A DNA stretch of 56,577 bases from a virus: the IMG/VR virus record IMGVR_UViG_3300027759_000111, positions 1 to 56,577 of that record. The stretch is one strand, 5' to 3'. Numbering within the stretch: position 1 is the stretch's first letter; each line of letters starts with the position of its first letter. A program made the position numbers and the translations under genes. Positions 26,782-44,900 of this stretch are shown one piece after another. The notes beneath the pieces were generated by a model. The model was not told where the DNA came from, did not search any database, and saw nothing but the letters and a program-made list of their open reading frames with translations.

Positions 26782-27503
26782 ATTTTATCCTCGTAATCTT
26801 TTATATTATTTTTAATATATTCTGTAAGTTTTTTAGTGAAATAATTTCTAAATTTGTAAACCACAAAGTAATATGGATACTGAAAAATATATTTTAGAAT
26901 ACCTAAAAAAGTAAAATTAGTTTCTGGTAATGACGCTATACGTATTTGCATTAAATAATATTCAGTATAATCTCTTAAAAACATAGCATTATAATGTTTT
27001 ACAAAATCTTCTTCAGTAATTTTACCTGATAGTTTAATAAATTCTTGCACAGATAATTTTTTTTCTTTTATTTCTTTATAATTATATGTAACATTGTGCC
27101 CATGCCAAGCTTGATTTTTTTTATCTGATATTCTAAAGTTTAATGGTAATTTAGATTTTAAAATATTTTTTTTAAAATTATTTAATTGTTCCATAGTATT
27201 AAAAGCAATAGTAACATATCTAAATTTTCTATCAGAATGTCCCTCACAACTAGAACAGGTTAAATAACCTTTATTAATTAATAAGATTACCAAATCAAAA
27301 ACTCCAGGATCAATATTTTCACCTATAAAAGGATTATATGGACTTACATGACTACTAACATATTCACCATCTTTGTCAATATATTCGTAAGGTCTTCCAT
27401 CTTTTGTTTTAAATTTGTTAGAATGTTTAAACAAAGCGTAATTTAATATTTCTTCATTATCATCAATTGCAACTTTTGTATTAGTTTTATATTCTTTGTT
27501 CAT
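26778..27503 (-). CDS. Unknown protein with LTCSSCEGHSD motif
   Basis: A 241-residue protein. An N-terminal domain includes DPGVFDLVILLINKGYLTCSSCEGHSD and RYVTIAFNTMEQLNNFKKN, which looks like a compact alpha/beta fold with a possible metal- or substrate-binding Cys-Cys-His site. The second half is basic and aromatic (YIFQYPYYFVVYKFRNYF). I do not recognise the family; the S-x-C-x-G-H element is vaguely like tRNA-modification proteins of the Taw3 type, but that is not a call. It overlaps the radical SAM gene by 17 bases. Confidence 0.55.
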   Translation of the reverse strand: MNKEYKTNTKVAIDDNEEILNYALFKHSNKFKTKDGRPYEYIDKDGEYVSSHVSPYNPFIGENIDPGVFDLVILLINKGYLTCSSCEGHSDRKFRYVTIAFNTMEQLNNFKKNILKSKLPLNFRISDKKNQAWHGHNVTYNYKEIKEKKLSVQEFIKLSGKITEEDFVKHYNAMFLRDYTEYYLMQIRIASLPETNFTFLGILKYIFQYPYYFVVYKFRNYFTKKLTEYIKNNIKDYEDKI

Positions 27504-28407
27504 AGTAATCTAGCAATCCTTTATATCCGTTGCAACTGTTTGTTAAATCTTTAACATAACGGTAATGCTCTGTTAAACAATGGCCATAATATTTACACTT
27601 TTTACATATATCTGAAACATTATTAATAGGTTCTTGTTCTGCCCATTTTATATATTCTTTAATTGAATTTAATTCTAAAAAATATTCTTTATCATCTTTA
27701 TTAAATTCTAAAACAGCAAAGTTACCATTTGGTGTTATATACACGTGGTTGTTTGAAAATGCATTATAATTTTTATTTAAACTTTCTATAATTTTGCCTT
27801 CATTTATAAAATCAAATTTTTTTGTAACTGAACTTTCAATCCATTTTTTTACAAACAATTCAAAATCTTTATGTGTGATAGGATGTGCATTAGCCTGATT
27901 TATTGAATATGGCTTAATCTCAACACTTTCTATACTAGAACACAAATTTAATTTGTTTATCATATCATCTACGTTCATCTCTATAACCTTTTGACTTGCA
28001 AGTATTAACACCGCTATTGGAACAGTGCTTTGAAACATATTATTATAAACCAAATCAGATTTTTCTCTAGCTTCAAAATCATAACTTATACTTAAATAAA
28101 AGTCATTTTCAAAAAATCCTTCATGCAACATAGAATAGTTTGTTATTATATTTATCTTGTCTTTATAGTATTTTCTTATAACATTTTTTATCCCATAGAA
28201 ATAATCTTTTTTTAAAGCACCTATTTCGCCGCCATATAAATCTACCCAATCAATCTTTCTTACTTCACTAATTTCTTTAAGTCTTTGATTGAGTATTGCT
28301 AGTGGTATTTTTTTTTGATCTCCTAATTGTTCAGGTGTAAGATAACAAAAATTGCATCTAAAATTACAAAAATAACTTGGATTTATAGAAACAGTTATAC
28401 TATTCAT
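27487..28407 (-). CDS. Radical SAM protein (C14/C18/C21) with short Cys-rich C-terminus
   Basis: A 306-residue radical SAM enzyme. The 4Fe-4S cluster motif is CNFRCNFCY (Cys14, Cys18, Cys21), followed by DLYGGEIGALK, the glycine-rich SAM-binding strand. The C-terminal part has CKKCKYYGHC and a late Cys (NSCNGY), suggesting one auxiliary cluster, fewer cysteines than a full SPASM domain. A segment VYITPNGNFAVLEF is typical of SPASM/twitch proteins. The substrate is likely a peptide or protein by analogy with that family. It shares an operon with three other radical SAM genes. Confidence 0.8.
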   Translation of the reverse strand: MNSITVSINPSYFCNFRCNFCYLTPEQLGDQKKIPLAILNQRLKEISEVRKIDWVDLYGGEIGALKKDYFYGIKNVIRKYYKDKINIITNYSMLHEGFFENDFYLSISYDFEAREKSDLVYNNMFQSTVPIAVLILASQKVIEMNVDDMINKLNLCSSIESVEIKPYSINQANAHPITHKDFELFVKKWIESSVTKKFDFINEGKIIESLNKNYNAFSNNHVYITPNGNFAVLEFNKDDKEYFLELNSIKEYIKWAEQEPINNVSDICKKCKYYGHCLTEHYRYVKDLTNSCNGYKGLLDYYEQRI

Positions 28408-28409: not shown

Positions 28410-29105
28410 TTATGCGTTATTATCTTCAAAAATCAAATCAACAGGCATAGATATTCTTAGTTTTCCAAAAAATAATTCTACACCATGATAAACAAAACTA
28501 GGAAACAATACTACATCTCCGGTTTTAGGTTCTAGTCTTTTGTCATCAAACATTTTTGAAAAGTTTGCATTAATTTGATACCCCCTATTTGCATTTCCTC
28601 TAGGATCTCTAACACTTAAAGCACCTCCTAAATTTTCATTTTCATTTAATAAATAAAATACAGCACTCAAATGAGAGCCCGAATGATTATGTTCAGGCAT
28701 AGCGTAACCTTCTTTAAATGTAACACCAGATCCATTCAACCAAGATTTTAAAAAATATTTTTCTTTTTTTAAATCTATATTTAGCTGTTCTTTTAAATAT
28801 TTTTCAAATACAGGAATAACTTCCTTTTCTTTAAATTCGTTAAAAAAACTATCATCTAATAAATTTTTTTCACTTCTTATTTTTAAGTCTTTATCAAAAG
28901 TATAACCATTTGTAGCAATCGCACCACTCTTATCAGTTGTTTCAGTTAGATAATTAGTTATAACATGATTTACAACTTTTTCTAATAAGACTTTATCTTG
29001 AATTTTTGTTATTAAAATTGGTGTTGGCCAACAATAATTATAACCTTCATCAAAACTATATTTTTTATTAGTTTGTTTGTTTATTGATAAATTTGAAAAT
29101 GTCAT
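28410..29105 (-). CDS. 2OG-Fe(II) oxygenase, TIGR02466-like
   Basis: A 231-residue oxygenase. PEHNHSGSHLSAVFYLL carries His139 and His141, FVYHGVELFFGKLRISMP carries distal His207 and Arg217. YCWPTPILITKI near the start is the usual N-terminal strand of this family. The NLGGALSVRDPRG insertion agrees with relatives. It overlaps the next gene by 4 bases and lies 2 bases from a radical SAM gene. Substrate unknown; a protein or peptide side chain is possible in this context. Confidence 0.85.
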   Translation of the reverse strand: MTFSNLSINKQTNKKYSFDEGYNYCWPTPILITKIQDKVLLEKVVNHVITNYLTETTDKSGAIATNGYTFDKDLKIRSEKNLLDDSFFNEFKEKEVIPVFEKYLKEQLNIDLKKEKYFLKSWLNGSGVTFKEGYAMPEHNHSGSHLSAVFYLLNENENLGGALSVRDPRGNANRGYQINANFSKMFDDKRLEPKTGDVVLFPSFVYHGVELFFGKLRISMPVDLIFEDNNA

Positions 29106-29626
29106 ATATTAGTTAAATTTTTATTTACAAAATAATGAAAACTTGCAACCTTTCTAGGCATTTTAATTTTCAATGGTGTTACCATGTGTTCAAATTGTTC
29201 ACTTTGATTCATTATAATAATATCATGTTGTTTAGGATAATAAGAATTAATTAATTCTTTTGTTTTTGTATTTCTAAATTGAATTGCACCACCTATATCT
29301 TCATCCATCGTATCAAAATACATTAAAACACAAAGATTAGATACTATAATCATGTCATTATGCCATTCTAAAGTTGCTTTATCCATACCATTTACCAAAT
29401 CAATTTTTTCTGAAATTTTATAGTTGTTATCTATTTCTTTTACATATTTTTTTGCCAAATATGTTTGCGTTTCTACTAATTGATTTTTTAATTCTTGATC
29501 TTTTATTGCAACAGATAATCCTATGCAGCCTGGATCTGACCATTGTACATTATGTATATCTATATATTTAAATGCGTTACTGTCATTTAAATATATATGT
29601 CCTTTTGACAAAAAATTATCTATCAT
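29102..29626 (-). CDS. 2OG-Fe(II) oxygenase
   Basis: A 174-residue oxygenase with TLEWHNDMIIVSNLCVLMYFD (His89, Asp91), IGGAIQFRN and FEHMVTPLKIKMPRKVASFHYF (distal His147, Arg158). All iron ligands and the 2OG-binding Arg are present. It is compact for the family. It overlaps the upstream radical SAM gene end by 11 bases and the downstream oxygenase by 4. Confidence 0.83.
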   Translation of the reverse strand: MIDNFLSKGHIYLNDSNAFKYIDIHNVQWSDPGCIGLSVAIKDQELKNQLVETQTYLAKKYVKEIDNNYKISEKIDLVNGMDKATLEWHNDMIIVSNLCVLMYFDTMDEDIGGAIQFRNTKTKELINSYYPKQHDIIIMNQSEQFEHMVTPLKIKMPRKVASFHYFVNKNLTNI

Positions 29627-30713
29627 TTACACTTTCATTTATATAAGGTGTTACTTCTATATTTAGTCCGTTAGATTTAAGTATATCTGGAGCAATTGAT
29701 TTCATTAACTTACAGTGCTCCTCTACCATATTATGCTGTTTTAAATCTTTAATTGTTTTTCTGCAACCATTACATATCTCAAACATAGGACAAGTAAAAC
29801 AGGCCTTCTTCATACTAATAAAATTAATATCATCTTGTAATGGTGTAAAAAACTCACCTTTCATTTCTTTATCAAAATTTATTGATTTATCTTTATCATC
29901 ACCAAACGAACCACAAGAATAATAATCTCCACTAGGATTTAATGCACGAATACCACTATCACATTTACGATTTTGAGGACATGATGTTCTTCCACCAATT
30001 AATCTTTGTATCATTTGCCTTGTATTAAATTCCCAAGGCGTAAGTCCACGTTTCCATATTTCTACATAGATTTGGTATATCTTACTTAGTAAGTAGGGCT
30101 TACCTTGTTCTCCACTTGCCATTGCATAGTTTAATTTACACTCAACACCTATTTTACTGTTACGTGAAAAATTATGTAATGTTCCATCTGGTTTAACATC
30201 TTCACTCATTCGTTTGGCTAACTCTACGTTTTTAATTGCATCTTTTTCATTTTCAGGTACAATAACAGATATAAAATCTGGTCTATAACCACAGTGTTCT
30301 AACATAGTATCAGAACACTTCCAAAAATCTTCTTCTGTAAATTCTGAATAATCTCCTTTAAGACGGCCACCACCATATTGAAAAGAAGTTGTTACACCTA
30401 TTCTTTCGTTATTAAATAAAGACTTCCATTTTTTGGGTTTTATATAAAAAGGCCATAAATTAGTAGTTAGAGCTATAGAAGTTTTATAATCGTGTTCGTC
30501 TAACCAGTTTATAATTTTCCAATAATAATCTGGTTTCATCATTAAAGGGTCGCCACCATTGACTATAATGGTTTTTGTATTAGGAAATCTTTTTAAAAAT
30601 GTAAATATTTGTTCGTGTGATAATACATCTTTTTTATGTTCTGCTATTTTAGTACTCGAACAAAAACTACATTTAAAATTACATAGTTCCGTTGGTTTTA
30701 TAATTAAATCCAT
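29616..30713 (-). CDS. Radical SAM/SPASM protein (C11/C15/C18)
   Basis: A 365-residue enzyme. The SAM cluster motif is CNFKCSFC (Cys11, Cys15, Cys18), followed by IVNGGDPLMMK. The C-terminal half shows a SPASM-type arrangement: SCPQNRKC, GDYYSCGSFG, CFTCPMFEICNGC and EHC. SPASM proteins usually bind two auxiliary clusters and modify ribosomal peptides or enzymes. It starts 10 bases inside the end of the upstream 2OG gene and ends 11 bases inside the next, so the reading frames are tightly packed. Confidence 0.87.
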   Translation of the reverse strand: MDLIIKPTELCNFKCSFCSSTKIAEHKKDVLSHEQIFTFLKRFPNTKTIIVNGGDPLMMKPDYYWKIINWLDEHDYKTSIALTTNLWPFYIKPKKWKSLFNNERIGVTTSFQYGGGRLKGDYSEFTEEDFWKCSDTMLEHCGYRPDFISVIVPENEKDAIKNVELAKRMSEDVKPDGTLHNFSRNSKIGVECKLNYAMASGEQGKPYLLSKIYQIYVEIWKRGLTPWEFNTRQMIQRLIGGRTSCPQNRKCDSGIRALNPSGDYYSCGSFGDDKDKSINFDKEMKGEFFTPLQDDINFISMKKACFTCPMFEICNGCRKTIKDLKQHNMVEEHCKLMKSIAPDILKSNGLNIEVTPYINESVNDR

Positions 30714-31282
30714 TTCAATTCTTTATCAGTAGGAGCTTCAACATTCCACCCAAAAACCAATGTTGTTCTTGGTTTTTCGCCAAAATAAGGTTTTACACGG
30801 TGAACAAGAAATCCTGGAAAAATAATCAATCTATTTTGTTTAGGTAACACATTTATTGTGTTAGATGGATATTCTGCAAAAGTTAAATTTTTATATATGG
30901 TTAATTCGCCACCTACCCAATCAACACCATTAAAAGAAGAGTCTATATAATAGATAGCCGTAATGTATGAACGTTCCACCATATCGTGATGAGGTTCATA
31001 TAAATGATTGTAGACCATTTTTTCATCATATTTTTTTAAACGGCCTTTTTGTAAATTACTAAAATTAAGAGAATTAAAATCTATATTATTTTCAGCGCAA
31101 TAATTTATAAATGTAACATTTACTATTTCATATAATTTTTGTTGACTTTCTGAAAAACTATCTTGACCGGCAATAGTTTTATCTATTAAAGATTCTTTTT
31201 TTAACCTTTCTATTAAGTTTACATCATCTATATAATCATCATAAACACAAACAGGTTCGTTTATAAATTTTAATATTTTCAT
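30704..31282 (-). CDS. 2OG-Fe(II) oxygenase, P4H-type
   Basis: A 192-residue oxygenase with EPHHDMVERSYITAIYYID (His98, Asp100), GGELTIYKN, GFLVHRVKPYFGEKPRTTLVFGWN (distal His161, Arg172). The overall pattern matches small viral and bacterial P4H-fold hydroxylases. It lies between another oxygenase and a radical SAM gene. Confidence 0.87.
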   Translation of the reverse strand: MKILKFINEPVCVYDDYIDDVNLIERLKKESLIDKTIAGQDSFSESQQKLYEIVNVTFINYCAENNIDFNSLNFSNLQKGRLKKYDEKMVYNHLYEPHHDMVERSYITAIYYIDSSFNGVDWVGGELTIYKNLTFAEYPSNTINVLPKQNRLIIFPGFLVHRVKPYFGEKPRTTLVFGWNVEAPTDKELKWI

Positions 31283-31293: not shown

Positions 31294-31938
31294 TTATTCT
31301 ATTTTATATCTAAACCCAAACGTATACCTAACTTTATCCCCAGCAGAAATTACTTGATGATGAATTAAAGGATTTGAGTTATTAATAACAACAAACGTTG
31401 AATCTATTGGATAGTGTGTATGCGTTAATTTAACAGAACCATCTTCTTGTTCTACACCAATATTTAATTGACCACCCCAATTTTCATTCCATTCTTTATG
31501 GTCGTTTATATAAACTAACACAAAAAAATCTGACGTATCGCTAACATCATTGTGCATCTTAATATCTAATTGTTTATCCCACAATCCCATACTCAAAGGT
31601 TTGATATTTCTAATACTTCTATATTTTATATGCTGTATTTTAACCAAAGAATCTTTTAGTGTATCAAAAAATTTCATATCAATAATAGAGTTAGCTAAAT
31701 TTTTAACTTTTGTTGGAGACTTACCATAACTCATTTTACATCTTAAAAGCTCTTCATAAAATTCTTCATTTTTTTCAATTTCAGGAGTTACTGCCCAATT
31801 TGCAAATCTTGGTTTATCGCCGTACCAATCTGTATTGATAATAATATCATTTGCTTCTTTTCGTATTTCTTGGGGTAAAATTCCAACATTATATCCTTCA
31901 GTGTAGAATTTAAATTTATTAAACTTCAAATCAATCAT
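31294..31938 (-). CDS. 2OG-Fe(II) oxygenase
   Basis: A 214-residue oxygenase with LDIKMHNDVSDTSDFFVLVYIND (His129, Asp131), NENWGGQLNIG, PLIHHQVISAGDKVRYTFGFRY (distal His193 or His194, Arg204). All catalytic positions are in place. A TATAAATA element ends 8 bases before the ATG, so the message could have a leader of about 3 bases. This promoter splits accessory block 2 into two transcription units. Confidence 0.87.
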   Translation of the reverse strand: MIDLKFNKFKFYTEGYNVGILPQEIRKEANDIIINTDWYGDKPRFANWAVTPEIEKNEEFYEELLRCKMSYGKSPTKVKNLANSIIDMKFFDTLKDSLVKIQHIKYRSIRNIKPLSMGLWDKQLDIKMHNDVSDTSDFFVLVYINDHKEWNENWGGQLNIGVEQEDGSVKLTHTHYPIDSTFVVINNSNPLIHHQVISAGDKVRYTFGFRYKIE

Positions 31939-31946
31939 ATTGCTAA

Positions 31947-31980: not shown

Positions 31981-32556
31981 TTAACTTAACCTTCTTATCC
32001 AATAATTACCTTTTCTTTTAAAGTTAAATTGTTGCATCAACTCTCTATGATATGGTTCATGTTGTATTTTTTTTTGATTCATAGCTAAATGCAGATATTC
32101 AAAATAAGAACCGGCTGGAACTATTATTTTTTTATCACCAAACATATAAATTATATCCGACCACATTTTTCTTAACAGATTTCTAACTTCTTTAATAGGT
32201 TTGATTTTTAAAACTCCAGAATATTTAATGCCCCCTATTATAATCTCATCATTATAAATGTGTATCATTGCAATACCTTTTTCTAATTTCCAATTTTCTT
32301 TACAAGTTATCCATTGTTCTTCATTTTTATTTTTCAATGTTTGTTCATAGATGTCTGGATCAGTTTCTTTAGTTCCCCACCAAATAAACATATGTGCTTG
32401 TCTAGGACTAATTCTTGGTATAAAAGGATGTTTTAATGGTAACGTATCTAATACTACATCAACATTTTTAGGTAAATTTATGTTAACGAGCGATGTATCC
32501 TCTTGATACTCGTACATCTTCGATATATCTGTGCGTAAGTTTATAGACACACTCAT
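31981..32556 (-). CDS. Unknown 191-residue protein of accessory block 2
   Basis: A soluble protein with two recognisable stretches, PRISPRQAHMFIWWGTKETDPDIYEQ and FEYLHLAMNQKKIQHEPYHRELMQQF. No cofactor motif or membrane segment is seen, and no family is recognised. The start at 32556 is supported by AGAGAGGAGTTAA directly before the ATG, although this places its first 25 codons inside the end of the upstream radical SAM gene in another frame (74-base overlap). Its place suggests a role with the modification enzymes. Confidence 0.6.
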   Translation of the reverse strand: MSVSINLRTDISKMYEYQEDTSLVNINLPKNVDVVLDTLPLKHPFIPRISPRQAHMFIWWGTKETDPDIYEQTLKNKNEEQWITCKENWKLEKGIAMIHIYNDEIIIGGIKYSGVLKIKPIKEVRNLLRKMWSDIIYMFGDKKIIVPAGSYFEYLHLAMNQKKIQHEPYHRELMQQFNFKRKGNYWIRRLS

Positions 32557-33529
32557 TTAACTCCTCTCTATACTTATAATCATGATTCATAAAACAACCT
32601 AAGGTACATCTTTCTAAAAACTCACAAGAAACACAATTGTATTTTTCTAAAAATTTATTTTCTATTATAGAGTTATCTCTAGGCTTAATTGGTGATTTAT
32701 ACATACTTAAAGATTTCGTGTCTTGCACTAAATTACCGCATAAACATAAAGTTCCATCTGCTAAAACTAACTTACTTACTCTACAAGAAGAATAATTTTT
32801 TTTGTTAAAAATCCAATCTTTAATTGGGTGAACGTTAGGATATTTGTCAACACAATACTTAAAAAATTTTAAAAGCAATTCATCACTTGGCATATTAAAT
32901 TTTGCGTGTTCATCAGGCATATAATAATCAAAATAAATATATTTGCCATTATTATATAAGTAATCAAAATATTCATCGCCTTCTTTTAAATAATATTCTA
33001 TATTAGGTTTTGTAAGTAAACAAGAAAAACAAGTAACTCTATTACCAAAATAATCTACATTTTTTTTAAAAATTTCAAATTGTTTAGGATTAAAACGACC
33101 TCTAGGATCGTATGATGTTGTTATTCTAGCTGATATATTGTTGTCTTTAGAATACTTTAATAAATCTTCTATTAAATCAAGTTTATCTGTTACTAGATTT
33201 GTAACCCAATTTAAAGAACAAGTTTTTTTATATTTTTCTGATATTTTTTGTATACCTATCGACAGCTGTTTATATGCTTCGTTTAATTCTTTAGTGTAAA
33301 TAGTGGGAGCAAAAACTTCACCTCCCATTAAATTTAAAGTAACTTTATTTTTATTTTCTTTACTTATAAATTTTTCAATAGGTTCCAGTTTATTTAAAAC
33401 CGTGTCTAAACCTATTTTATCTTGGTGATTTTGCCAACAAAAAGAACAACTTAAATTACAAAATTCAAATAAATGTATAGTATATTCCTGCTCAGGATCT
33501 CTTTTAGGATCAATTAAAAATTCACGCAT
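32483..33529 (-). CDS. Radical SAM/SPASM protein (C24/C28/C31)
   Basis: A 348-residue enzyme. CNLSCSFCW provides Cys24, Cys28 and Cys31 for the SAM cluster; LNLMGGEVFAP is the SAM-binding glycine strand. The C-terminal SPASM-like part has SSCRVSKLVLADGTLCLCGN, CVSCEFLERCTLGC and ECVYK. The LADGTLCLCGN strand is the usual pattern before the auxiliary clusters. It follows the two unknown proteins of the precursor unit at a 9-base gap. Confidence 0.87.
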   Translation of the reverse strand: MREFLIDPKRDPEQEYTIHLFEFCNLSCSFCWQNHQDKIGLDTVLNKLEPIEKFISKENKNKVTLNLMGGEVFAPTIYTKELNEAYKQLSIGIQKISEKYKKTCSLNWVTNLVTDKLDLIEDLLKYSKDNNISARITTSYDPRGRFNPKQFEIFKKNVDYFGNRVTCFSCLLTKPNIEYYLKEGDEYFDYLYNNGKYIYFDYYMPDEHAKFNMPSDELLLKFFKYCVDKYPNVHPIKDWIFNKKNYSSCRVSKLVLADGTLCLCGNLVQDTKSLSMYKSPIKPRDNSIIENKFLEKYNCVSCEFLERCTLGCFMNHDYKYREELNECVYKLTHRYIEDVRVSRGYIAR

Positions 33530-33538: not shown

Positions 33539-34657
33539 TTATAATAATTTAAATTTGGATAATTCTTCTATATTATTTTCTTTCTTTAAATTTATAATAT
33601 AATGCACAAAAACGTAATTTGTGTTTTTAAAATCAAATTTAGGAATCAGTAGGGTATCACTAGGATGTTCTATTAATAAATTTAACAAAGAATCTAATTC
33701 AGACTTTGTAATTTCATCCTTTGTAACATATTCTAAAAAATCAAAGATGGCAAAATTGTTTTGGTCAATATCTATACCTTCAATATCTTTATATATTTTT
33801 AAAAATAAGTTTCTTAAACCATCAATTTGTTCTTGCGTTAAATTTTTAAAATTCAAATAATTACGATTATCTGATTTTAATTTATCCGTTGGCCATATTG
33901 TTTCATCTGAATAATATTTTAAAGATTCAATATTTTTAATAGGATTAATATTGTAAAAATCTATATTAGATTCTGTATAATTTAAAACTGATTGAAAATT
34001 TCTATTAAGTAAATTAAATAACACCATTTCTTTACTATCTCTTAATATTTCTAAAAACCATCTTTTTAAAAAAACAAGTATTGTGAATTTTAGTGATTGT
34101 AAATTTTTTACGGAATTGCTAAAATAATCAGCCAATAAAAATTCAATTGAATAATTTAACTCAAATGATTTAATTTTTTCTATTTCGGTTTGGCTAATAA
34201 CAGTATTGTTAAATATAGTATCAACATTTTCAAATAGATAATCAGAACTCCAAAAAGCATTATCATTCTTAATTGTTATATCATCACCTTCAGAATTAAC
34301 AAAATTCATTCTTTCTTTGAATACAAATAATTTTATATAGTTTTTATAACTTTCTAAAGTTAAATTAGGTAATATTAATTTTAACCATTTAGTTAAAAAC
34401 TTGCAATAATTAGTTTTATCGCAATATATAATAGTTTTATTATTTGAAGATTTTGAATGATCGTATATTTTTTGAATTAAATCTGTAAAGCTAATATCAT
34501 CAATATTTTTTTCAAAATGTATTAACTCTCCTTTATTAATTTGTTTATATAAATCTAATAGAGGAACACCTTTAATTTCCGATATTACAACACGATCAAA
34601 ACTTGAATTTATAACATCATCAAATTCTAAATATGATTTATTAAATAAATGAAACAT
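33539..34657 (-). CDS. Unknown 372-residue protein linked to the Cys-His-Ser protein
   Basis: A large, AT-rich gene encoding a Lys/Asn/Phe-rich, largely helical protein with no recognised motif. Weak landmarks are KTIIYCDKTNYCKFLTKWLK near residues 90-115 and SDTLLIPKFDFKNTNYVFVHYIINLKK near the C-terminus. Its start overlaps the upstream 231-residue gene by 17 bases. It lies between the candidate substrate and a radical SAM enzyme, where RiPP operons often place recognition or scaffold proteins; that role is inference. Confidence 0.6.
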   Translation of the reverse strand: MFHLFNKSYLEFDDVINSSFDRVVISEIKGVPLLDLYKQINKGELIHFEKNIDDISFTDLIQKIYDHSKSSNNKTIIYCDKTNYCKFLTKWLKLILPNLTLESYKNYIKLFVFKERMNFVNSEGDDITIKNDNAFWSSDYLFENVDTIFNNTVISQTEIEKIKSFELNYSIEFLLADYFSNSVKNLQSLKFTILVFLKRWFLEILRDSKEMVLFNLLNRNFQSVLNYTESNIDFYNINPIKNIESLKYYSDETIWPTDKLKSDNRNYLNFKNLTQEQIDGLRNLFLKIYKDIEGIDIDQNNFAIFDFLEYVTKDEITKSELDSLLNLLIEHPSDTLLIPKFDFKNTNYVFVHYIINLKKENNIEELSKFKLL

Positions 34658-35336
34658 TTTTTATAATTTCTTTGTCGTTATTTCTAGCATTTATATATTC
34701 TTTACCTTTTCCGTCTACTATATTCCAAGTTAATAAAAACATTGGGTTATTTTCGTTACTCCAATATGAAAATAAATTTTTACCTCTAAACATATAATCT
34801 TCAAAGTAACGTGTATAGAATTTAACTATATCATTATTTATGTTTTTAAAAAATAAGTAAAATCTTTCATGTTTTAATAAACTAACAAAATTTATGCCAT
34901 CTAGGCTATTAGTATCATCTTTTGGAAATGATTTTGCATAATCTTTAAATTCATCAGAATTTACACTGTAAAGATTAAAAATTGATAAACTTTCTAATTT
35001 TTCTCTCCACTTAGATATTATATCTTTGTTTTCATCTATAAAATTTTTATATTTATTTTCTTTAGATATATTTTTAAATTCAAAAAGTATATCAATAACA
35101 ATATTTTCTAGTGAACTTATATTAAGTAAACTAATACTATGTAAATATTCTTTTACTAATTCTAAATCTGGATTTTTTATATCTGTTGGCAAATCTAGGT
35201 TACTTAAATACGTTAAAAATTTTTTTCCTTTTAAACCACTACCTTGATAATCTATTGCATAAGATACTTCTTTATCTGTAAAATATTTTTTTAAATTTTC
35301 TATTGATATAGGTACTGTTGTTTCAATTATTTTCAT
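34641..35336 (-). CDS. Unknown 231-residue protein directly after the Cys-His-Ser protein
   Basis: A soluble protein. The start MKIIETTVPISIENLKKYF and YAIDYQGSGLKGKKFLTYL are followed by mostly helical, Asn/Lys-rich sequence and a C-terminal LFSYWSNENNPMFLLTWNIV. No family is recognised. Its ATG overlaps the stop of the candidate substrate (TAATG), so both are translated together in a fixed ratio, which supports a functional partnership such as binding, chaperoning or recognition of that protein. Confidence 0.6.
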   Translation of the reverse strand: MKIIETTVPISIENLKKYFTDKEVSYAIDYQGSGLKGKKFLTYLSNLDLPTDIKNPDLELVKEYLHSISLLNISSLENIVIDILFEFKNISKENKYKNFIDENKDIISKWREKLESLSIFNLYSVNSDEFKDYAKSFPKDDTNSLDGINFVSLLKHERFYLFFKNINNDIVKFYTRYFEDYMFRGKNLFSYWSNENNPMFLLTWNIVDGKGKEYINARNNDKEIIKNVSFI

Positions 35337-35878
35337 TATCTTCTACCTCGTGAACTGTGGCAAGAACTATGACAGCTTGTGTGGCAAACATCTATTGTTG
35401 TAGTCACAGTATTACTTCTTAGAGTTGTATATTCTGTAGCCAAATTACCAAAATAAGTTTCTAAATTAGAAGATGATATAGTTTGTGTAGCATCTACACT
35501 TGCACTATTAATTGCACCTAATGTTTGTCTATTACTAGTGGCCATATGAGCAACGTTTGTTGCATCAAAAATAACTCCACTTCCTAAAAGATTTTTTATT
35601 GCTCTTTGTAATCTAATATTTGTATATAAAGCAGTTTCAGTTTCTAATACTGTTTTTATTGTACTAGCGGTAATAGCATTTCCTGCGCTACCTATTGTTG
35701 CACCTGTCGCTGTAACTGTTGCACCGGCCGTTGTACCAGCATATGTTGCATCTGGCATTTCTGCAAAAGGTTTACTGTCTGTACCGTAAACAATACCTGT
35801 GTTAGCAACGTCAGTTACTAGGTCTTTAAATCTATCCACTATATTTTGTGGTGTAACTGGATTAGTTAATGTTACCAT
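35336..35878 (-). CDS. 180-residue protein with C-terminal (Cys-His-Ser/Thr-Ser)x3 tail; candidate modified substrate
   Basis: The body (residues 1-163) is Ala/Thr/Ser/Gly-rich and looks like a phage structural protein (TNPVTPQNIVDRFKDLVTDV, TVTATGATIGSAGNAITAST). The last 16 residues are CHTSCHSSCHSSRGRR: three Cys-His-x-Ser units and a basic end. This is unlike any neighbour and resembles substrate tails of radical SAM RiPP systems, such as His-x-Ser repeat proteins, but with Cys. It also holds two overlapping C-x3-C-H patterns, which could bind heme or metal. It starts 17 bases inside the radical SAM/SPASM gene and ends in a TAATG overlap with the next gene. A modified virion protein is the leading idea. 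Confidence 0.7.
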   Translation of the reverse strand: MVTLTNPVTPQNIVDRFKDLVTDVANTGIVYGTDSKPFAEMPDATYAGTTAGATVTATGATIGSAGNAITASTIKTVLETETALYTNIRLQRAIKNLLGSGVIFDATNVAHMATSNRQTLGAINSASVDATQTISSSNLETYFGNLATEYTTLRSNTVTTTIDVCHTSCHSSCHSSRGRR

Positions 35879-36899
35879 ATTGTATATTTTTCTTTAACTC
35901 TTTCATTAAACTCTTTGGTGCGCCACATATATCTCCTTGCCAAGCAAGTTGGTGGCAATCACCTCCACAAAACTCAAAAACTTCACAAGAAAAACATATA
36001 GGGTTTCTTGCACGTTCACAAGCGATGTTTTCTATTCGCACAGGACTATTTATAACACTTTTAATATCGTCTTTTATGTGTCCAAATTGAAATTCTGGAG
36101 CTGAATTTGGACAACCTGATATAGTACCATCTGCATTTATTGTAAATATTTTTTGTTCACAATCTCTACAAAAAGTACCACCTTTTAAAAAACCTGTTTC
36201 AAATTTACTATATATTACTTCTAAAGTATCATTACCAAACCAATCTCTACAATTAAATTCTTCAGACTGGTGGTGCATTTTCAAAAACCACTTATCTTGT
36301 TCTATATTATCAGGAAATATTTCAGGATGTAATTTTGCATTTCCGTTACCTGTTAATCTTTCAAAGGACACTTCTTGTACACCCAATTGTTTTACCCATT
36401 TTAATAATTCAATGGGTTCCATAGCAATAGTATCTTTTGTTACACTGATAAATAATCGAATCGTTGCACCTTTAGACAACAAATCTTTTACATTTTTTTC
36501 CCACAAATTATATTGGCCAGCTGTTTCAAATCTAATTTTAGGATCCCAACTTGTTCCTATACGATTGTTTAATGTGTATTTTATAAAATCATAATGCTCT
36601 TGTTTTAATTTCAATACTAAATTTGTTGTAATACCAAATGACCTATTCTTCCATAAATCTTTACATTCATCATACAATTTTTGCATATGAGATACTGGTG
36701 CTAAAAATGGTTCCCCACCATGAAACTCAAAATGAATTGAATCATCTTTATCGTTAAAATAATTTCTAAATCTTTTTATAAAATCAATAGTTTTAAAAGG
36801 ATCAAAGTAAATCTTTTTACCATTTATACCACTTGTGAAACAATGTTTACAGTTAAGTTGACAAGTTTCTGTAGTTTTTATATAAAACATCCATCTCAT
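35862..36899 (-). CDS. Radical SAM/SPASM enzyme, putative maturase of the Cys-His-Ser protein
   Basis: A 345-residue protein from the ATG at 36899, which overlaps the cupin stop (ATGA); a longer in-frame opening exists upstream but would overlap the cupin gene further. CQLNCKHC gives Cys13, Cys17 and Cys20; FEFHGGEPFLAP is the SAM strand. The C-terminal SPASM domain is complete: FCRDCEQKIFTINADGTISGCPN, then RNPICFSCEVFEFCGGDCHQLAW and ICGAPKSL. Anaerobic sulfatase-maturase and peptide-crosslinking enzymes have this layout. It is fused by overlap to the candidate substrate gene, which makes it the best maturase candidate among the four radical SAM proteins. Confidence 0.88.
   Translation of the reverse strand: MRWMFYIKTTETCQLNCKHCFTSGINGKKIYFDPFKTIDFIKRFRNYFNDKDDSIHFEFHGGEPFLAPVSHMQKLYDECKDLWKNRSFGITTNLVLKLKQEHYDFIKYTLNNRIGTSWDPKIRFETAGQYNLWEKNVKDLLSKGATIRLFISVTKDTIAMEPIELLKWVKQLGVQEVSFERLTGNGNAKLHPEIFPDNIEQDKWFLKMHHQSEEFNCRDWFGNDTLEVIYSKFETGFLKGGTFCRDCEQKIFTINADGTISGCPNSAPEFQFGHIKDDIKSVINSPVRIENIACERARNPICFSCEVFEFCGGDCHQLAWQGDICGAPKSLMKELKKNIQYGNIN
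36047..36054 (-). promoter_or_regulatory. Possible internal late promoter TATAAATA upstream of the Cys-His-Ser protein
   Basis: An exact element on the minus strand inside the radical SAM gene, 168 bases upstream of the candidate substrate start. It could raise substrate expression over enzyme expression. A chance match within coding sequence cannot be excluded. Confidence 0.3.
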
Positions 36900-37348
36900 T
36901 GTGTATATCCTATACTTAAAGCCCAAGTAAATGGTAAACTATCAACTTTATGTTTTGCTCCTTTAGGTATTGATATAGATTGTCCTTCTTTTATTAAAAT
37001 AGGATAGTTTTCCGTATATATTTTTTTACTACCTTTTATAACACATAACAACACATCTATATCGTCTGTATGTTCAGGAAAAGAAAATCCACCAAATTGA
37101 TTGTAAAAAAGATGAACATTTTTTGTTTTAAAATTTAAATTATAATCTTTCAACAATTGAAGATGATAGTTATTATCTTCTAATCCTTCAATTTTTATGT
37201 GTGAAATAGTTTTATATGTTTTTATCCAATCACCGTAAGTCATTTGTTCTTTAACTCTATAGTCGTTACCTTTTTTATCTATATAGATTATTTGATTATT
37301 TTGGTATCTTGTGAAGGATATTAATTCATCATTTAAAGCATTAATCAT
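36896..37348 (-). CDS. Cupin-fold protein heading the modification operon
   Basis: A 150-residue protein with a cupin-type beta barrel: FSFPEHTDDIDVLLCVIKGSKKIYT (His and Asp as in the H-x-D pair of JmjC/cupin enzymes), EGQSISIPKGAKHKVDSLPF with a further His. This is the motif pattern G(X)5HXD... and PKGxxH. It may be a small 2OG- or metal-dependent enzyme, or a binding protein. It starts 25 bases after the fibre gene and its TGA overlaps the radical SAM ATG. Confidence 0.65.
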   Translation of the reverse strand: MINALNDELISFTRYQNNQIIYIDKKGNDYRVKEQMTYGDWIKTYKTISHIKIEGLEDNNYHLQLLKDYNLNFKTKNVHLFYNQFGGFSFPEHTDDIDVLLCVIKGSKKIYTENYPILIKEGQSISIPKGAKHKVDSLPFTWALSIGYTQ

Positions 37349-37372: not shown

Positions 37373-38773
37373 TTATAGTATAATTGCCTCAATAAGGCCG
37401 TTTTCATTATCTTCTAACGCTATTGCAAATACTTTATTAAATTCTATGCTAATCGTTGTTGCAAAACCTCCGTTGCCTGCAACTAATTCATCACCTTTTT
37501 TAATGGGTCCTACAACTTTTACTTTAACACGGCCTTTTAGTGCTATTGGTTGGCCTGTACCTTTTGCGTTCATTAAAAAAGCAGGTCTATCAGATATAAC
37601 ACCTATCGCTTTATTACCTACAAAACATTCAGTAACTTCTTTATTACCGCCTACCATAACAACTGTACCAATATCATAAATTTTATCTGTTTCATAGATT
37701 TCGGCTAAATCGGCATATTGTGCTTGTGTAGCTGTCGTTGAAAGAACATTAGTTGAAGGATTATAAGTTAAACTTGTGTCAGTTTTTAACGCCTGGTTAC
37801 CTGTTGCAGTACCAGCAAACGTTAAAAAGTTTGCAGTATTAGTTGTGTCATCAGCAGTCAATGTAACTGTAGAAGCAATAGATGAAGTTCCTGTTATAGT
37901 TGAAGCAACTAAAGTATTTACTGTTAATGTATCTCCTGATAAATTTAATTTTGCAGCTCTTATAGTTGTGTCTGCAATATCTTCATTTATAATTGTACCA
38001 TTGGCAATCATTGTACTTGTAACTGTGCCTGTATCTCCAGTTGTTATAATTGTACCTGTGATATTTGGTATGGTAATTGTTCTATCTGCTGTTGGATCAA
38101 CAACAACTAAAGTTGTTTCAAAAGCATCATTCGTTGAACCTTCAAATATAATTCCTACTGAGCCTGTTAAAAGCAAATCAGTACCTTGTATTGTGCTTGT
38201 TCCCGTAATTGTAGTGCCTGATACTGCTCCTGAAAAAGCTCCTGTTGTTCCTGAAATTCCTGTACCTGCTATAGTTCCTGCTGATATGATAGAAGAAGCA
38301 TTTATAACTCCAACTACAGTCAAAGGATCATTTATTGTAACTAAAGAAGTGTTTGTTGATCTAATAGTATTACCGCTAATTTCAATAGTACCTAATGTAT
38401 GTAAAGCACCTCCTGCAGTAATATTTCCAGATGTAGCTGTAAAATTACCAGGAATAGTTACGTTACTAGTCAATGCTAATGTTAAAGTATCGGTTGCACT
38501 TACAACTGCTGTAATTTGATTTGAAGTGCCTCTTACGTCTAAAATTTGACCTGCACCTATAGCTTGAATTGTTGAACTTGAATCTCTAATTGTCCAACCT
38601 GCAGCAGAAAAGGCAACGCCGGCTATTTCTACAACCGCACCCACAATAGAAGTGGATGAAAGACCAGCACCTGCAAGTAATGATGGATTACCAAAATCAG
38701 TTTGAGTTAAAGTGTTTAACTTAACTCGCATCTGTTCTAGTGTATCAGTGGTATTGATTACTGTAAATGCCAT
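37373..38773 (-). CDS. Tail fibre protein with C-terminal ADLAE-type domain
   Basis: A 466-residue fibre. The N-terminus (AFTVINTTDTLEQMRVKLNTLTQ) is followed by a repetitive Gly/Thr/Ile-rich shaft (SGTTGAFSGAVSGTTITG). Around residue 205 the module FEGSTNDAFETTLVVVDPTADRTITIPN appears, shared with the 126-residue protein at 22648. The last 110 residues (QYADLAEIYETDKIYDIGTVVMVGG, GVISDRPAFLMNAKG, GRVKVKVVGPIKKGDELV) form a widespread fibre C-terminal domain, related to those that trim chaperone parts. It lies at the end of the baseplate gene run. Confidence 0.78.
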   Translation of the reverse strand: MAFTVINTTDTLEQMRVKLNTLTQTDFGNPSLLAGAGLSSTSIVGAVVEIAGVAFSAAGWTIRDSSSTIQAIGAGQILDVRGTSNQITAVVSATDTLTLALTSNVTIPGNFTATSGNITAGGALHTLGTIEISGNTIRSTNTSLVTINDPLTVVGVINASSIISAGTIAGTGISGTTGAFSGAVSGTTITGTSTIQGTDLLLTGSVGIIFEGSTNDAFETTLVVVDPTADRTITIPNITGTIITTGDTGTVTSTMIANGTIINEDIADTTIRAAKLNLSGDTLTVNTLVASTITGTSSIASTVTLTADDTTNTANFLTFAGTATGNQALKTDTSLTYNPSTNVLSTTATQAQYADLAEIYETDKIYDIGTVVMVGGNKEVTECFVGNKAIGVISDRPAFLMNAKGTGQPIALKGRVKVKVVGPIKKGDELVAGNGGFATTISIEFNKVFAIALEDNENGLIEAIIL

Positions 38774-38996: not shown

Positions 38997-41900
38997 TTAT
39001 GCTGCTAAAGCTATTCCTCTTAAATCCCTAATAATAGGAGGGTAAGAAGAATTGCTACCTTTCAAAACTATTTTAATTTGAAATGCTGTGAACTCATTTA
39101 AACCTGTATCTGAATATTTGTATTCTTTAAAAACATTTGAATTTTCTGCTGGTATTACAGTTATATCTTCATTACCATCTGTATTAAATGGCACCCAGCT
39201 CAAATCATTTATATTTCTTACTTCTGAAGAACTAGTAATTCTATAGAAAACTTTTACAGAAGAAGATGATCTTACATTTTGAGTTAATCTCACATCTAAA
39301 GCTGTAGAAGCATTTTCTAAAATAATTGGTCGTGTTACGTAAACAGCGGCTGATGATGTTCCTGTAGGACTTGTATCTGTTACAAAGTTTGGTGTATTAG
39401 CTGACGTAGGTAGATTCAATCTATTTTGTACGGCAACCATACTCATACGTTTCACATCTAAGACAGGAGATAATTTTGTATTTGTAGTTGTCATTGTTAA
39501 ATTGACAAACAAAGATTTACCACCTGACATTTCATTAGTTTCATTTATAGAACTTGCAACCATTTGAGGTGATGTAAAGTAAATATTATCACCAACTGTT
39601 ACCTGAATTTGATTTGACGCTGAAGTTAAACTAAAAGAAGTTTCACTTCCGTGTATTGATTTACCACTTGTTGTTCTCATTGTATAAAGAATTTGAGTAT
39701 CAGGAACCGTTAAAGTAGATATATTTAAACAAGATAAATCAAACAATCTATTTTGTGTGGCCGTTACAGTTGTGCCACCAATATCTCCTGTAGATGTTGC
39801 TGTACCAGCTGTTGTAATATCATAACTGTCTAAAGTTACATTTGAAATGCTTGTATATGTTCCATTTATTTGTGTATGAGTTATTCCATTATATGTACCT
39901 GCTGCTACTCCTGCAATCGTAACATTATTAGTTGTACTATGCATTCCGTGATTTTTATGGAATACTCTAATTACTCCTGAAGTATTTGTTGTTCTCAATG
40001 AATTGTTTGGTAAAGTTTTTGTAGGCACAATATCGTTACATAAAGTTACAACGCCAGTAACATTAGTAAATTCAGCTCTATTAATTTTAAATTTTATATC
40101 TGTTGTTTGATCTGGAGTCCAAGTAGAACCATTTTGTGATTTAAAGAAAACACCTGCATAAGGGTTAGACGATATTGTTCTATTTGAACCTATTTGTGTT
40201 TCACCTAATGTGGCCACAAAAGCATTATAATTATCACAATTACTTAATAAACAAAAACTATATTCTGTTTTTTCTTGTAAATAAACTGGAGAAGGAAATG
40301 TAAATTTTGTAGCTGTTGTAGCATCAGCACTAATACTTACTGAACTTGGATTTAAAACAACTTCACCAAAAGGTACAATTGTGCGTGAAGGATAACCATT
40401 TACGACTTCTCTTATTTGTAAAGTGATAGGAATGTTAGTATCCTTTGATTGAAAATAACATTCAACAGATGTTACAAAAACTCCACCAGTATCATCAATT
40501 AAAAATGTTTGTGCAATAGGGTCAATCCAACCAACAACTTCTGTTGTAGACCTTGTAGACTCTCTAGTAATATTTCTTGTATCGTTTACTGTCTGTCTAG
40601 TTAATATAGTTTCTCTTGTTGAAACAATTGTATTTTGTACAGTTTCTAAAGAACCTTTAGCAATATAATCTGCTTCAGCAGAAGTTTCAACATCATTTGT
40701 TGAATTTGTAGATGAGCTTGTTAATCTGAATACTCTTTGACCTGTTCTCCATCTAGGATTAGAGTCATTAGTTGCATCAGGTATAGCAAACGTTCCTGAT
40801 ACGGCACCATTAGCGTCTGTAACTAAATTGCCACTTAATGAACCACCTGTTGGTGTAACATATGAAGTAATTGCTATATTATCAAAATAAGGATAAACTC
40901 TAGTATTTGGTTTTAATCTAGTGGCAGTAAAATTAATTGTTCTACTTCTAATAAATGGTATAAAAGCTATATTTAATACTCTATCACCTAAAGATGTTCT
41001 AACAACCTGAGGAACTAAAGCTGTTCTAATTCCTGACCTAGTTTGAGAAATCGCTTGCGCTGTCGTTGTTGTTACATCTTGTACCCAAGGCCTTCTTCCA
41101 CCTCCTCCTGCATCTCTTGTTCCACCTCGTTGTATAGTTTCAACTGGTGTACCTTGCCAAAAATCTTGCCATTCATTCCATACAGTATCAATCTCAACAC
41201 TATTTAAATTAGTATTTCCTATACCAGCAACCATTGTGTCAAAAGAACCTTGTTCATTTATTAATAAATCAGGAACTCTATTTGTTTCTTTCCATTCGTC
41301 GCCTGGAGGATCAAGCGTAACTGAACCTGCCCAAGTAAATACACTAAAAGGATTTACATTTACATATCTACTAGCATAAGGTTGTTCAATTATATTTGTT
41401 TCTGTATAAGGTAACGTAATTAAATCTCCTGTTTTTTGATAATTGGCCGCTGTTCTATCAGCTGTTAATATTGCTGTACCATCATCATCTGCTTCGATTA
41501 ATTGAACTGATTCAGAATTGAACATAGGTCTAACATAACCGCCAGCCATATCCATAGATACTTTATAATCTAAATTTCCTACGTCACCTATTCCGTGTCC
41601 AGTAAAATTATCTACAATAAATCCGTTTTTAAATCTATCAAATCCTTCAGCGTCTTGTATTTGTAAAGATTGTGCTTGTGTTTCTAATAAGGATAATTGT
41701 GTGTAATATTCTACGTTTTCAATTCTTTTTTCTAAACGGCCAATATCTCTCATAGTATATCGTCTATTATCTTGTTCTCTAATTTCTAAGTCTGTGGTAT
41801 CAAAAGTATAAGGCCTTAAAGATATAGTATATAAATGCATAGCATTTTCAAGTCCTTTAGGAACTTTAGGTGATAAAGAACTTGCACCTTTAACTACTTT

Positions 41901-44900
41901 AAAATTACCATCTTTATCCAAAAATATTTTATCTATTCTAGCTAAATAATATTCAAAATCTGTAGAAATATCTGAATTGAACTGTACAACATCAACAGTA
42001 GAAGCGCCTGTTGCAATAGCACTTGATGTTGATTGAAAAATTCTATCTTGTGTTGCGCTTGTAACAGTTGAAGCGTCAGCAACTCTAGGTCTAAAATCTA
42101 AACAATCTCTTAATTTGTATACTTTACCAGAGGTATCTGATGTGTATGAAGGTATATCTACGTAAGGTATACTTGAATAAGAGTCAACATCAAAATAATC
42201 TCCTGAACCGTGAGAGTAATAATCAAAATCAATTAACAATCTTCCTGTAGGAACAATTGCACCTGTTTTTAATTTAATCCTACCTATATCATAAAAATTA
42301 TCTCTTTGACCATTATCTAAAGTAAACCTTGAAGTAATATTTGTATTTGCAGTTGTAGCTGCAGTTGAAAAATTAGCAGACATATAAATGTTATTAATAG
42401 CAACAATATCTGCTTTTTGTAAACTTATAATACCAGATTCAATTAATGTTTGAGATGATATTGCAATCGTAGAATTTGCATTTAACGTTTTTGTTTTTGA
42501 ATCTGTTGTTGTTCTATTTACCGTGGCTAATATTTTAATTTTTGCGTTTGAGTAATTTGTACCAAAATTTAATGTAAGTGTTTTATTAGCAGGAGAAGTT
42601 GATAATGTAAATATTGCGGTTCCTAAATGATTATTTCCGCTTAAACTTAAAACGTTACCATTAGCTCCGGCTGTTGCAGAACCTATTGTCATAATAGAAA
42701 CAGAATAATCTTTTTCAATTAAAGAACTAAATGTTTCGTTTGTACCCGCTGTAATTGTTGCAGTTCCTGAAGATAATGTTGCTACAAATTGTTTTCTTAC
42801 TTTAAAACTAGTATCAGAAATTCCTGAATTTGCCGTAGTTTTTAAAGTTTTAATAACGTTATAAGGCAATTCAAATATTGATACATTTTTATTAGAACCT
42901 TGTAATACAGGTCTCTTTCTAATTGCAACTGTTTTAGTAGAAACATCAGAAGATCCTACAGCAGTTAATAATTGTAAACTTGTATTTGAGGAGATAGATT
43001 CAACAATTCTTGTAACTGAACTTCCTGCATCAGTAGTAAATGTAATAGAATCACCTAATCTTAATTCAGTTAAAAATAAAGTACCAAATCCTGTTACTAA
43101 TGTTCCACTGTTTGCAACTGATATAGAACCAAATACTGGATAATTATCTCCATATGTAGAATCAAGTGCAGTATCAGCTGTATAAGTAGGAGAACCTGTC
43201 ATACCAACTTGTTTAACTTGTGTAAAATCAAAAGTTTGAACACCTTTAAATCCGTATATTTCATTTTGTATAACTGCTGTTACACTTGAAGTAGCACCTG
43301 TAATTGTTTCTCCTTCTACAAATGTGCCTGTTACATTATTTAAAACTGTAACACCGTGTGCGGCTGTAGGAGCTGAACTGTAAGAAGTTACGTTAATTGC
43401 TGCATCACCAGCGGCATTAAATAATTGAAAAGTGTTTGTTGTAGGATTTTTAACTGTAAATACTGTGCCTGTTGTATATGCAACAGAATTAATAGCAAAA
43501 GAACCACCTGTTAAAGTTATTTGCATTCCTTCTTCAAATGAATGTGCGTTTAATGTTACAACTCCAGGACTTGCAACTGAAATACTTGAAACTGCTGCCG
43601 ATTTTGTATTAGATATAGATTGAACATAACCAAAAGCTCCTGATGTTCCACCTGTTACCTTTTCTCCATTAGTAAAAGCAGGCGCTGTTTTTACATTTAA
43701 ATGTGTAAACATTTCTATATCAAATAAAAAATGTTTATAAACTGCACTTGTTAAAGCTGAACTAGAAAATGTGTTTGCACTGGCCGTTCCACTGTTTAAT
43801 TCAAAGCCTCTTGACTTAGCACGACCAATTTGCGGTACTGTAACTCCTACTGTCGATTGTTCAGTACCTCTAGTAACTGTAGCCGTGTCGTATAAATTTA
43901 TTCCTTTAAATGCTTCTATTTCACCAGAAACAAATCCCATATCAGGTGTGCCAAATACGTTTGTAACATTTACAAAATTCTCTACGTCAAATCTTGTACT
44001 AAAATTACTTTCACTATTAAAATCCCTTGCTTTATCAGCATCTAAAAAAATAGTACTTAGAGTTTCAACTTCATATCCTTTAATATATGCTTTTCCAGGA
44101 CCCATACCATATGCAAGTTTTGCTTCATCACCAATGTCTGTAGGTGGAGCTAAATATATACCTCTATTATTTTCAGCGGTATTAAGTATATGTTCTCTTA
44201 CGTCTAATTGAAAATTTCTTACTGTGTAGTCGCCCGATTCATCATATGTTCTTCGTGCAAAAGTATCCTCTAAAACTGCATAATCGGTAGAACGAACTTG
44301 ATTTTGTCTAATACCTGTTTTTAATCTTAATAATTCTACAAAATTATTATCAGCAGATGACGTTAATGTTCTTTTTGCAAGAATTAAATCTATCTTAAAT
44401 CTGTGAGCTCCTGGTGCATTTATGTTTGATGAACCTTGAGCATTATCAACTAAACTAGTATCATCATTAGATGTAATAAAAGATTCTTCAACTGTTAACC
44501 CAATTCTATAACTTGGTGTGTTTGTATATTTGTCAAGTATTAGTGTTTGTTCTAAAACTGAAACGTGAAAACCATTTATGTAATAAACACCGGCCGATAT
44601 ATTAGCAGCAGAACCAGTTGCCGTTGAATTTACCACGGCAGTTGCTAAAACTGTCGCAACACCTACTGTTCTAGCTTGTATTGTTTCACCACTAGTAAAA
44701 GCAAAAGATGTATTGTTTGTTCCTGATTTATTATATTTTACATATAAAGTATCTGGATCTGTACCGTCTGTTACAACAGCATTGACACAAATACCTACAA
44801 CACCTGAAGTAACACCTGTTAGTTGTTTACCAATATATTCAGCAACTGTGGCATATGTTTTGGATGTAAGTTTTACAGCGTAGTAATTTAAATCAAAAGC

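Follow-up and report, generated by a model that had tools for sequence, protein, structure and literature searches.

Organization of the module

IMG/VR record IMGVR_UViG_3300027759_000111 is a 56.6-kb virus record whose structural genes are of the T4-like marine myovirus type, and we refer to the whole of this stretch as the window. On its minus strand, a fibre-like gene is followed, in this order, by genes for a cupin, a radical S-adenosylmethionine (SAM)/SPASM enzyme (rSAM1), a protein that ends in CHTSCHSSCHSSRGRR (consensus CHxSCHxSCHxSRGRR), a phrog_20767 protein, the MxHLFN protein and a second radical SAM enzyme, rSAM2 (Table 1). In what follows the 16 terminal residues are called the tail, the protein that carries them the tail protein and the remainder of that protein its body. 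The cupin stop codon and the rSAM1 start codon overlap in ATGA, rSAM1 and the tail protein gene share 17 bp, the tail protein and phrog_20767 genes 1 bp, and the phrog_20767 and MxHLFN genes 17 bp; the tail protein is translationally coupled to the cupin and rSAM1. A first-pass annotation of the window had described an overlap-joined set of cupin, radical SAM/SPASM enzyme and 180-residue protein: the overlaps are as it described, but the run comprises five genes, from the cupin to the MxHLFN protein, and not three.

A conserved 16-residue tail on diverse bodies

To follow the tail beyond the window, we scanned IMG/VR DNA for three TGY-CAY pairs spaced four codons apart and Arg-x-Arg codons after them, leaving all other positions free; the resulting counts describe a sample, in which loci are not independent and collections consist mostly of fragments. 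At least 119 stretches matched, about 100 of which encode CHxxCHxxCHxxRxRR at the extreme C-terminus, and among these C-terminal matches listed the tail always measures 16 residues from the first Cys to the last Arg before the stop codon. The remaining matches were low-complexity or off-frame, and the reversed pattern gave no match in 31 records. Positions left free by the pattern are also kept, with Ser at -13 (120/131), -9 (101/131) and -5 (116/131) and Gly at -3 (117/131). Codons are freely mixed in the tails (TGT/TGC for Cys, CAT/CAC for His, and both Ser blocks, TCN and AGY), indicating that selection acts on the peptide. We conclude that the tail motif is not due to chance.

The collected tail proteins number at least 171 distinct sequences, which fall into nine body families when compared by BLAST with the tail removed, and the regular C-terminal C-H-x-S repeat noticed in the first pass recurs among them in the same register and length; one phage (L068) has four repeat units. 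The mean column maximum at the C-terminus is 0.83 for the tail protein versus 0.14-0.60 for the other gene clusters of the module. HxS-like triads are visible by eye in the tails, and neither did the window tail protein match any NCBIfam model nor did 33 homologues match those of the His-Xaa-Ser (Hxs) system. Neither Pfam nor NCBIfam has a curated family for the tail protein, and no curated family covers the tail-enzyme pair; in PHROGs, the unnamed phrog_35144 alone matches the tail protein, in its C-terminal part.

The tail and rSAM1 are inherited together

Approached from the tail side, rSAM1 is adjacent and on the same strand in 67 of the 68 long single-copy tails (pattern-found loci listed, with at least 1.2 kb upstream), and in the exception, L065, it lies 6 kb away. 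Pattern matches that are not C-terminal tails have rSAM1 in 0 of 18 loci, a set that includes one true tail (L138) whose open reading frame (ORF) is cut by the locus edge. From the enzyme side, alignment to rSAM1 alone yielded 80 loci, and all 75 with room downstream encode an exact tail within 2.5 kb. A second type consists of tandem tail genes of about 110-130 codons that have no adjacent rSAM1 and are found with an rSAM1 gene 5-12 kb away in the same record; of 28 records with tandem or separated tails, 22 encode rSAM1 at another place in the record. The six records that lack it are contigs of 5.6-38.7 kb and, judging from gene positions in close relatives, we infer that rSAM1 lies beyond the contig end. 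Record G016 holds both tail types, single and tandem, each with its own rSAM1. The first pass had proposed the co-occurrence of C-terminal repeat and radical SAM gene as a check, which bears out from both sides; a conserved tail with no radical SAM gene anywhere, which it had named as contrary evidence, was not encountered, the only misses being the six short contigs.

Judged from a tree of 80 rSAM1 sequences, tail variants follow the enzyme clades: 8 of the 11 tandem-type enzymes group in one clade (support 100/100), and those of the bacterial FPPP-type in another (99/93). The system works in this way like a radical SAM repeat-core system of the kind known from ribosomally synthesized and post-translationally modified peptides (RiPPs), with maturase and conserved core inherited together.

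Catalytic motifs of rSAM1 and the cupin

The description of rSAM1 as a complete radical SAM/SPASM enzyme is borne out by its full cysteine set, in which the CxxxCxxC motif and the SPASM-type cysteines C256, C272, C311, C314, C320, C324 and C334 are invariant in 13 divergent homologues, and by scores above the cut-offs of PF13186 (SPASM; 24.0 bits versus 21.5) and TIGR04085 (34.4 versus 27). It meets no equivalog cut-off among curated models; the nearest, PapB, DynA, DarE, the anaerobic sulfatase maturases (anSME) and HxsB, are peptide or protein maturases, and all are far below their cut-offs. The nearest named solved structures include an anaerobic sulfatase maturase and 5wgg, which we take to be CteB, the SCIFF thioether maturase. 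In record G381, an open frame of 672 residues, considered as an rSAM1 fusion, proved to be a stop-to-stop reading only.

In the cupin, H93, D95 and H133 are invariant and K108 is nearly invariant across 38 homologues. JmjC enzymes hold their iron with an HxD...H triad, and FIH binds 2-oxoglutarate at a Lys placed 15 residues past the first His. PF08007 (JmjC_2, E<=0.01) is found in 24 of 34 cupin homologues, at best with 1.8e-10; the window cupin is below the cut-off of this model (17.5 versus 22 bits). The cupin profile matches MINA53 (2xdv), a histidyl hydroxylase, at 1.6e-4, and generic cupins score as well or better. Triad, Lys and the JmjC_2/MINA53 matches together make it plausible that the cupin is a His or Arg hydroxylase acting on the CH/RGRR tail.

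The module in isolated phages

Cupin, rSAM1, tail protein and phrog_20767 partner are encoded together in the isolated jumbo phages Atu_ph07, Phosso, pPa_SNUABM_DT01, FLC6 and SURPRISE13, where the module proteins are annotated as hypothetical or radical SAM. Their tails include CHSSCHASCHNSRSRR and CHTSCHTSCHSARGRR, and their bodies have no BLAST match to the window body; the tail protein is gp170 in Atu_ph07 and gp72 in FLC6. Neither the whole window tail protein nor its 24 C-terminal residues gave a tblastn match in isolated phages, which were found through the partner proteins instead. Marine and jumbo phages carry the system widely. The paper on SURPRISE13 lists a cupin and radical SAMs and remarks on no link between them (PMC11898562), and we found no description of the tail-radical SAM pair in the open-access literature (preprints not covered).

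Body of the tail protein and its fibre neighbourhood

AlphaFold models the body as an ordered alpha/beta structure (predicted local distance difference test, pLDDT, 88) and the tail as low-confidence or disordered (last block pLDDT 55). The suggestion that the core sits on a large protein and not on a short leader peptide holds across the system, in which it forms the C-terminus of ordered bodies of 110-350 aa. The matches of the tail protein in BFVD are uncharacterised phage proteins, one of them from Atu_ph07 and of the same length (296 aa) as the tail protein of that phage, gp170, indicating that bodies unlike in sequence can share a fold.

A fibre-like protein is encoded directly upstream of the tail gene(s) in 18 of 18 tandem or small-type loci, with a C-terminal region as in the window's fibre-like gene. 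In the window and some relatives this region matches Peptidase_G2, an autocleaving intramolecular chaperone of fibres, near the cut-off. In Atu_ph07, the virion-protein cluster delineated by electrospray ionization tandem mass spectrometry spans coding sequences (CDS) 170-215 (PMC6102473), so that gp170 is the first CDS of the published cluster. The fibre-gene neighbourhood and the position of the tail protein at the start of this cluster strengthen the earlier idea of a virion-borne protein, and we regard a place for the product on the surface of virion or cell as likely, with good confidence.

A version of the module in Bdellovibrionota

Among the first 119 pattern matches in GTDB genome contigs, five are true tails, three of them in Bdellovibrionota and the other two (L159 and L231) on phage-like contigs binned in metagenome-assembled genomes (MAGs). 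The contigs of L231/L357 and L159/L358, which carry the module, are binned as Rickettsiales and Euryarchaeota MAGs. A chromosomal version, recognized by its rSAM1 gene, is present in 18 of 369 Bdellovibrionota genomes, once on a 4.15-Mb contig, and rSAM1 was found in none of the sampled Pseudomonadota (0/399), Myxococcota (0/195) and Bacteroidota (0/297; phyla per starting genomes). The Bdellovibrionota tail loci lie in non-phage surroundings, for example pyruvate kinase and ABC transporters (neighbours named by eye), and in the rSAM1 tree the bacterial enzymes nest among phage ones, which suggests transfer of the module from phage to bacteria. Bacterial tail variants include CHSSHSSHSSHSSRGRR, CHSNHCSHSNHGSRGRR, CHGNFPPPCHGSRGRR and CHTNVPTPPPCHASRGRR, and in HSSHSSHSSHSS a single Cys is left and the enzyme is kept. 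Constant across the variants are the opening C-H-x-S/N and the closing R-x-R-R, and the core thus behaves as would a His-x-Ser repeat spaced by Cys.

The phage-fibre chaperone Peptidase_S74 is present in the four neighbouring bacterial genes tested, three of which also encode a prepilin N-methylation motif (N_methyl). Beside nearly every bacterial module stands a conserved protein of 184-209 aa that ends in (V/K)(N/D/K)GRHWVKIK or -VKVK and has no Pfam match; it could be another component, likewise with a conserved C-terminus of its own. Since the module lies beside a fibre in both phages and predators, we prefer a role in attachment, for which we put the chances at even, and attachment to another bacterium could be the shared role. 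Bdellovibrio uses phage-like fibres on its prey (PMC10769870).

Neighbouring genes and other features of the window

Over 108 loci, the most constant neighbours are the cupin (95 loci, at -1), the phrog_20767 protein (93, at +2 or near), the fibre-like protein (85, mostly -2), the MxHLFN protein (80, mostly +3) and a structural protein of the 2035-aa type (73). A radical SAM cluster lies at +4 in 56 instances, with further radical SAMs and 2-oxoglutarate (2OG) oxygenases downstream. The model of the phrog_20767 protein (pLDDT 81) gave no significant match in a fold search against the PDB.

Three more radical SAMs (rSAM2-4) and several 2OG oxygenases occupy positions 27487-33529 of the window; as many as 12 radical SAM genes have been noted in T4-like genomes from the environment (PMC5332604). 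A second accessory island, with further oxygenase-looking ORFs, lies among the structural genes at 10582-16324, and its halogenase is unusual for a phage structural region. By eye, the proteins at 16325-17905 and 53273-54160 are glycine-rich repeat proteins resembling fibre adhesins, and that at 54859-55149 is like a PAAR spike-tip protein.

Table 1. Features of the module, of the window and of related bacterial loci (window positions unless a locus is named).
Feature	Position	Strand	Basis or remark
C-terminal core, 16 codons, CHTSCHSSCHSSRGRR (3 C-H-x-S units + RGRR)	35339..35386	-	direct read
Tail-bearing body protein, 180 aa, ATG start	35336..35878	-	proposed fibre-tip/virion surface protein and enzyme substrate
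Radical SAM/SPASM enzyme rSAM1	35862..36899	-	ORF open to TTG 36926; ATG 36899 likelier start
Cupin, 150 aa, JmjC/ROX-like putative 2OG hydroxylase, HxD...K(+15)...H	36896..37348	-	homologue alignment, profile matches
phrog_20767 protein, conserved module partner	34641..35336	-	phrog_20767 at 5.5e-61
MxHLFN protein, conserved module partner	33539..34657	-	homologues at 80/108 loci, alignment
Second radical SAM, rSAM2	32483..33529	-	PF04055 above cut-off
2OG-Fe(II) oxygenase-like	31294..31938	-	PF13661 4.4e-5
2OG-Fe(II) oxygenase	30704..31282	-	PF13640 3.8e-8, above cut-off
Third radical SAM	29616..30713	-	PF04055 above cut-off
2OG-Fe(II) oxygenase	28410..29105	-	PF13759 6.3e-13
Fourth radical SAM	27487..28407	-	PF04055 4.6e-6
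Tail-fibre-like protein, C-terminal Peptidase_G2-like region	37373..38773	-	PF11962 3.7e-5, just below cut-off; phrog_19602 tail fiber 9.4e-9
2035-aa phage structural protein (DUF4815), upstream of module	38997..45104	-	PF16075 9.3e-59
Heme oxygenase	11231-11893		PF01126 1.4e-18 (island 10582-16324)
2OG-Fe(II) oxygenase	12462-13061		(island 10582-16324)
Tryptophan halogenase	13063-14553		PF04820 4.3e-78 (island 10582-16324)
Bdellovibrionota tail variants CHSSHSSHSSHSSRGRR, CHSNHCSHSNHGSRGRR, CHGNFPPPCHGSRGRR, CHSNCYTPPPKSRSRR	L414:4310-4918; L381:13562-14170; L382:9094-9648; L411		
Prepilin N-methylation motif + Peptidase_S74 fusion proteins	L380:11576-12706, L354:17956-19143, L382:14453-15547		
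184-209-aa protein	L354:19151-19705, L380:12715-13299, L382:15556-16143, L413:6562-7173		

Discussion

We think it likely that the window module carries out a RiPP-like maturation of a folded phage surface protein, in which a SPASM enzyme and a JmjC-like cupin act on a C-terminus at the fibre tip. The CHxSCHxSCHxSRGRR C-terminus would be the core peptide, and it is very probably the substrate of rSAM1. In the proposed mechanism, rSAM1 would bind the tail protein, and a 5'-deoxyadenosyl radical would take hydrogen from residues in each C-H-x-S unit; the likeliest products would be Cys- or His-centred crosslinks or oxidations, and we see a crosslink and some other radical modification as evenly matched. 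The cupin, as a JmjC-like 2OG/Fe(II) enzyme, may then hydroxylate tail residues, for which His or Arg are the natural candidates. The matured protein could dock onto the end of the neighbouring tail fibre with its terminal chaperone, like T4-type gp38 adhesins on gp37, and the host surface would then meet a tip that is rigid and modified. These viruses, in short, probably remake a surface protein's tip by chemical means.

Several observations weigh against this reading. The enzyme that acts on the tail is assigned from the pairing alone, in a region shared by four radical SAMs and several oxygenases. No tail was found in the regions read for records G108, G066 and G197, and in some Bdellovibrionota genomes no tail gene was seen near a second rSAM1 gene; in L377 and L378, which have two rSAM1 genes of different clades, one tail gene was seen nearby and a second substrate was not found. 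The body of the tail protein has no significant PDB fold match, and none that points to a fibre tip, and the presence of gp170 in Atu_ph07 virions is deduced from the boundary of the published cluster.

The same exposed terminus could serve unmodified. Its nine invariant Cys, His and Arg residues might bind Zn, Fe or Cu, possibly in a trimer, with rSAM1 acting on another target or in metal loading; Cys/His metal sites are common, and iron-binding His clusters occur in phage fibres and spikes. Such a metal tip is nevertheless improbable, given that a single SPASM subfamily is co-inherited with the tail, that tail variants follow enzyme clades and that the one-Cys bacterial variant makes an unlikely conserved metal site and a natural His-x-Ser repeat core. 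Slightly less probable still is a classic RiPP, in which the modified core would be cleaved from the body, an outsized leader, and set free as a small toxin or signal. The very C-terminal position on an ordered body, the placement of the gene among virion genes and bodies that vary between phages, where leaders are usually conserved, all speak for a retained core, and across the 108 loci the module has no recurrent, conserved peptidase or exporter, even if the basic RxRR end and the repeats resemble core and recognition elements and a FibroRumin Cys-rich RiPP model weakly matches 2 of 33 members (0.012). We give the least weight of these three to an assembly-only link, with the tail serving as docking signal for either the fibre or the phrog_20767 protein and the enzymes acting on some other molecule of the phage or the host. 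It would account for the functionally uncharacterised phrog_20767 and MxHLFN proteins, whose constancy comes close to that of rSAM1, and for the several other radical SAMs and oxygenases of the cluster, but tandem-type tails keep their rSAM1 partner over the intervening kilobases, rSAM1 is nearest to peptide maturases, and of the gene clusters compared, the tail protein has the most strongly conserved C-terminus. The heme site that the first pass had offered as an alternative is unlikely, because the spacing is Cx3CH and not the CxxCH of heme c attachment and because in certain bacterial variants a single Cys remains or the repeat is altered, with the enzyme retained; no heme-lyase candidate was noticed in the module.

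Maturation by rSAM1 and the cupin, if true, would explain phage radical SAM gene clusters that are usually listed as metabolic or left unexplained, and a common post-translational chemistry would tie phage fibres to predatory bacteria. More tentatively, and a little short of an even chance, phages and predatory bacteria may share an undescribed class of radical-SAM-built adhesin tips, in which one universal C-terminal core, made of C-H-x-S repeats and closing in RxRR, is borne by many unrelated surface proteins, is matured by a dedicated SPASM enzyme and a JmjC-like hydroxylase and, mounted on a fibre, serves attachment to bacterial surfaces. The module is present in isolated, growable phages, and a specific 16-residue peptide is predicted for mass spectrometry. 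To our knowledge, no virion protein has been shown to be matured by a phage-encoded radical SAM enzyme, and we found none matured in this way in open-access papers.

Comparison with known systems

Parts of the proposed system resemble several known ones. T-even phages likewise encode a small protein, gp38, directly after a chaperone-terminated fibre gene, gp37; gp38 has no sequence or fold match to the tail protein, and the known pair is without radical SAM modification. The fibre (MAT) proteins of Bdellovibrio likewise serve attachment to bacteria, and radical SAM enzymes are not mentioned in the paper that describes them (PMC10769870). The cupin shares the HxD...H triad and the Lys at +15 with the JmjC ribosomal oxygenases (MINA53, PF08007), but is much shorter and phage-encoded, and generic cupins match it as well or better.

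Judged by family cut-offs, rSAM1 falls outside the Hxs, PapB and anSME groups. Anaerobic sulfatase maturases (TIGR03942) are SPASM enzymes that act on one Cys or Ser of a large protein, and their model matches 13 of 13 rSAM1 homologues, but the window rSAM1 scores 42 bits against a cut-off of 349 and its putative target is a repeated C-terminal motif, not C/S-x-P/A-x-R. PapB-type ranthipeptide and SPASM thioether maturases (NF047865; CteB, 5wgg) have in common with rSAM1 the SPASM architecture, the best profile similarity and a Cys-containing core, whereas rSAM1 reaches 56.2 bits against a cut-off of 340, there is no CxxxD/E core and the substrate is large and folded. The His-Xaa-Ser system (HxsA with HxsB and HxsC; TIGR03978, TIGR03977) likewise pairs a radical SAM maturase with an H-x-S repeat, and one bacterial tail of the present system reads HSSHSSHSSHSS. 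It differs in that rSAM1 scores 41.3 bits against the HxsB cut-off of 370, that the best HxsC score is 29.3 against 267.9 (for rSAM3) and that no HxsD-grade protein is present; here every canonical unit is C-H-x-S, and a virion-like body carries the core as a short tail at its C-terminus.

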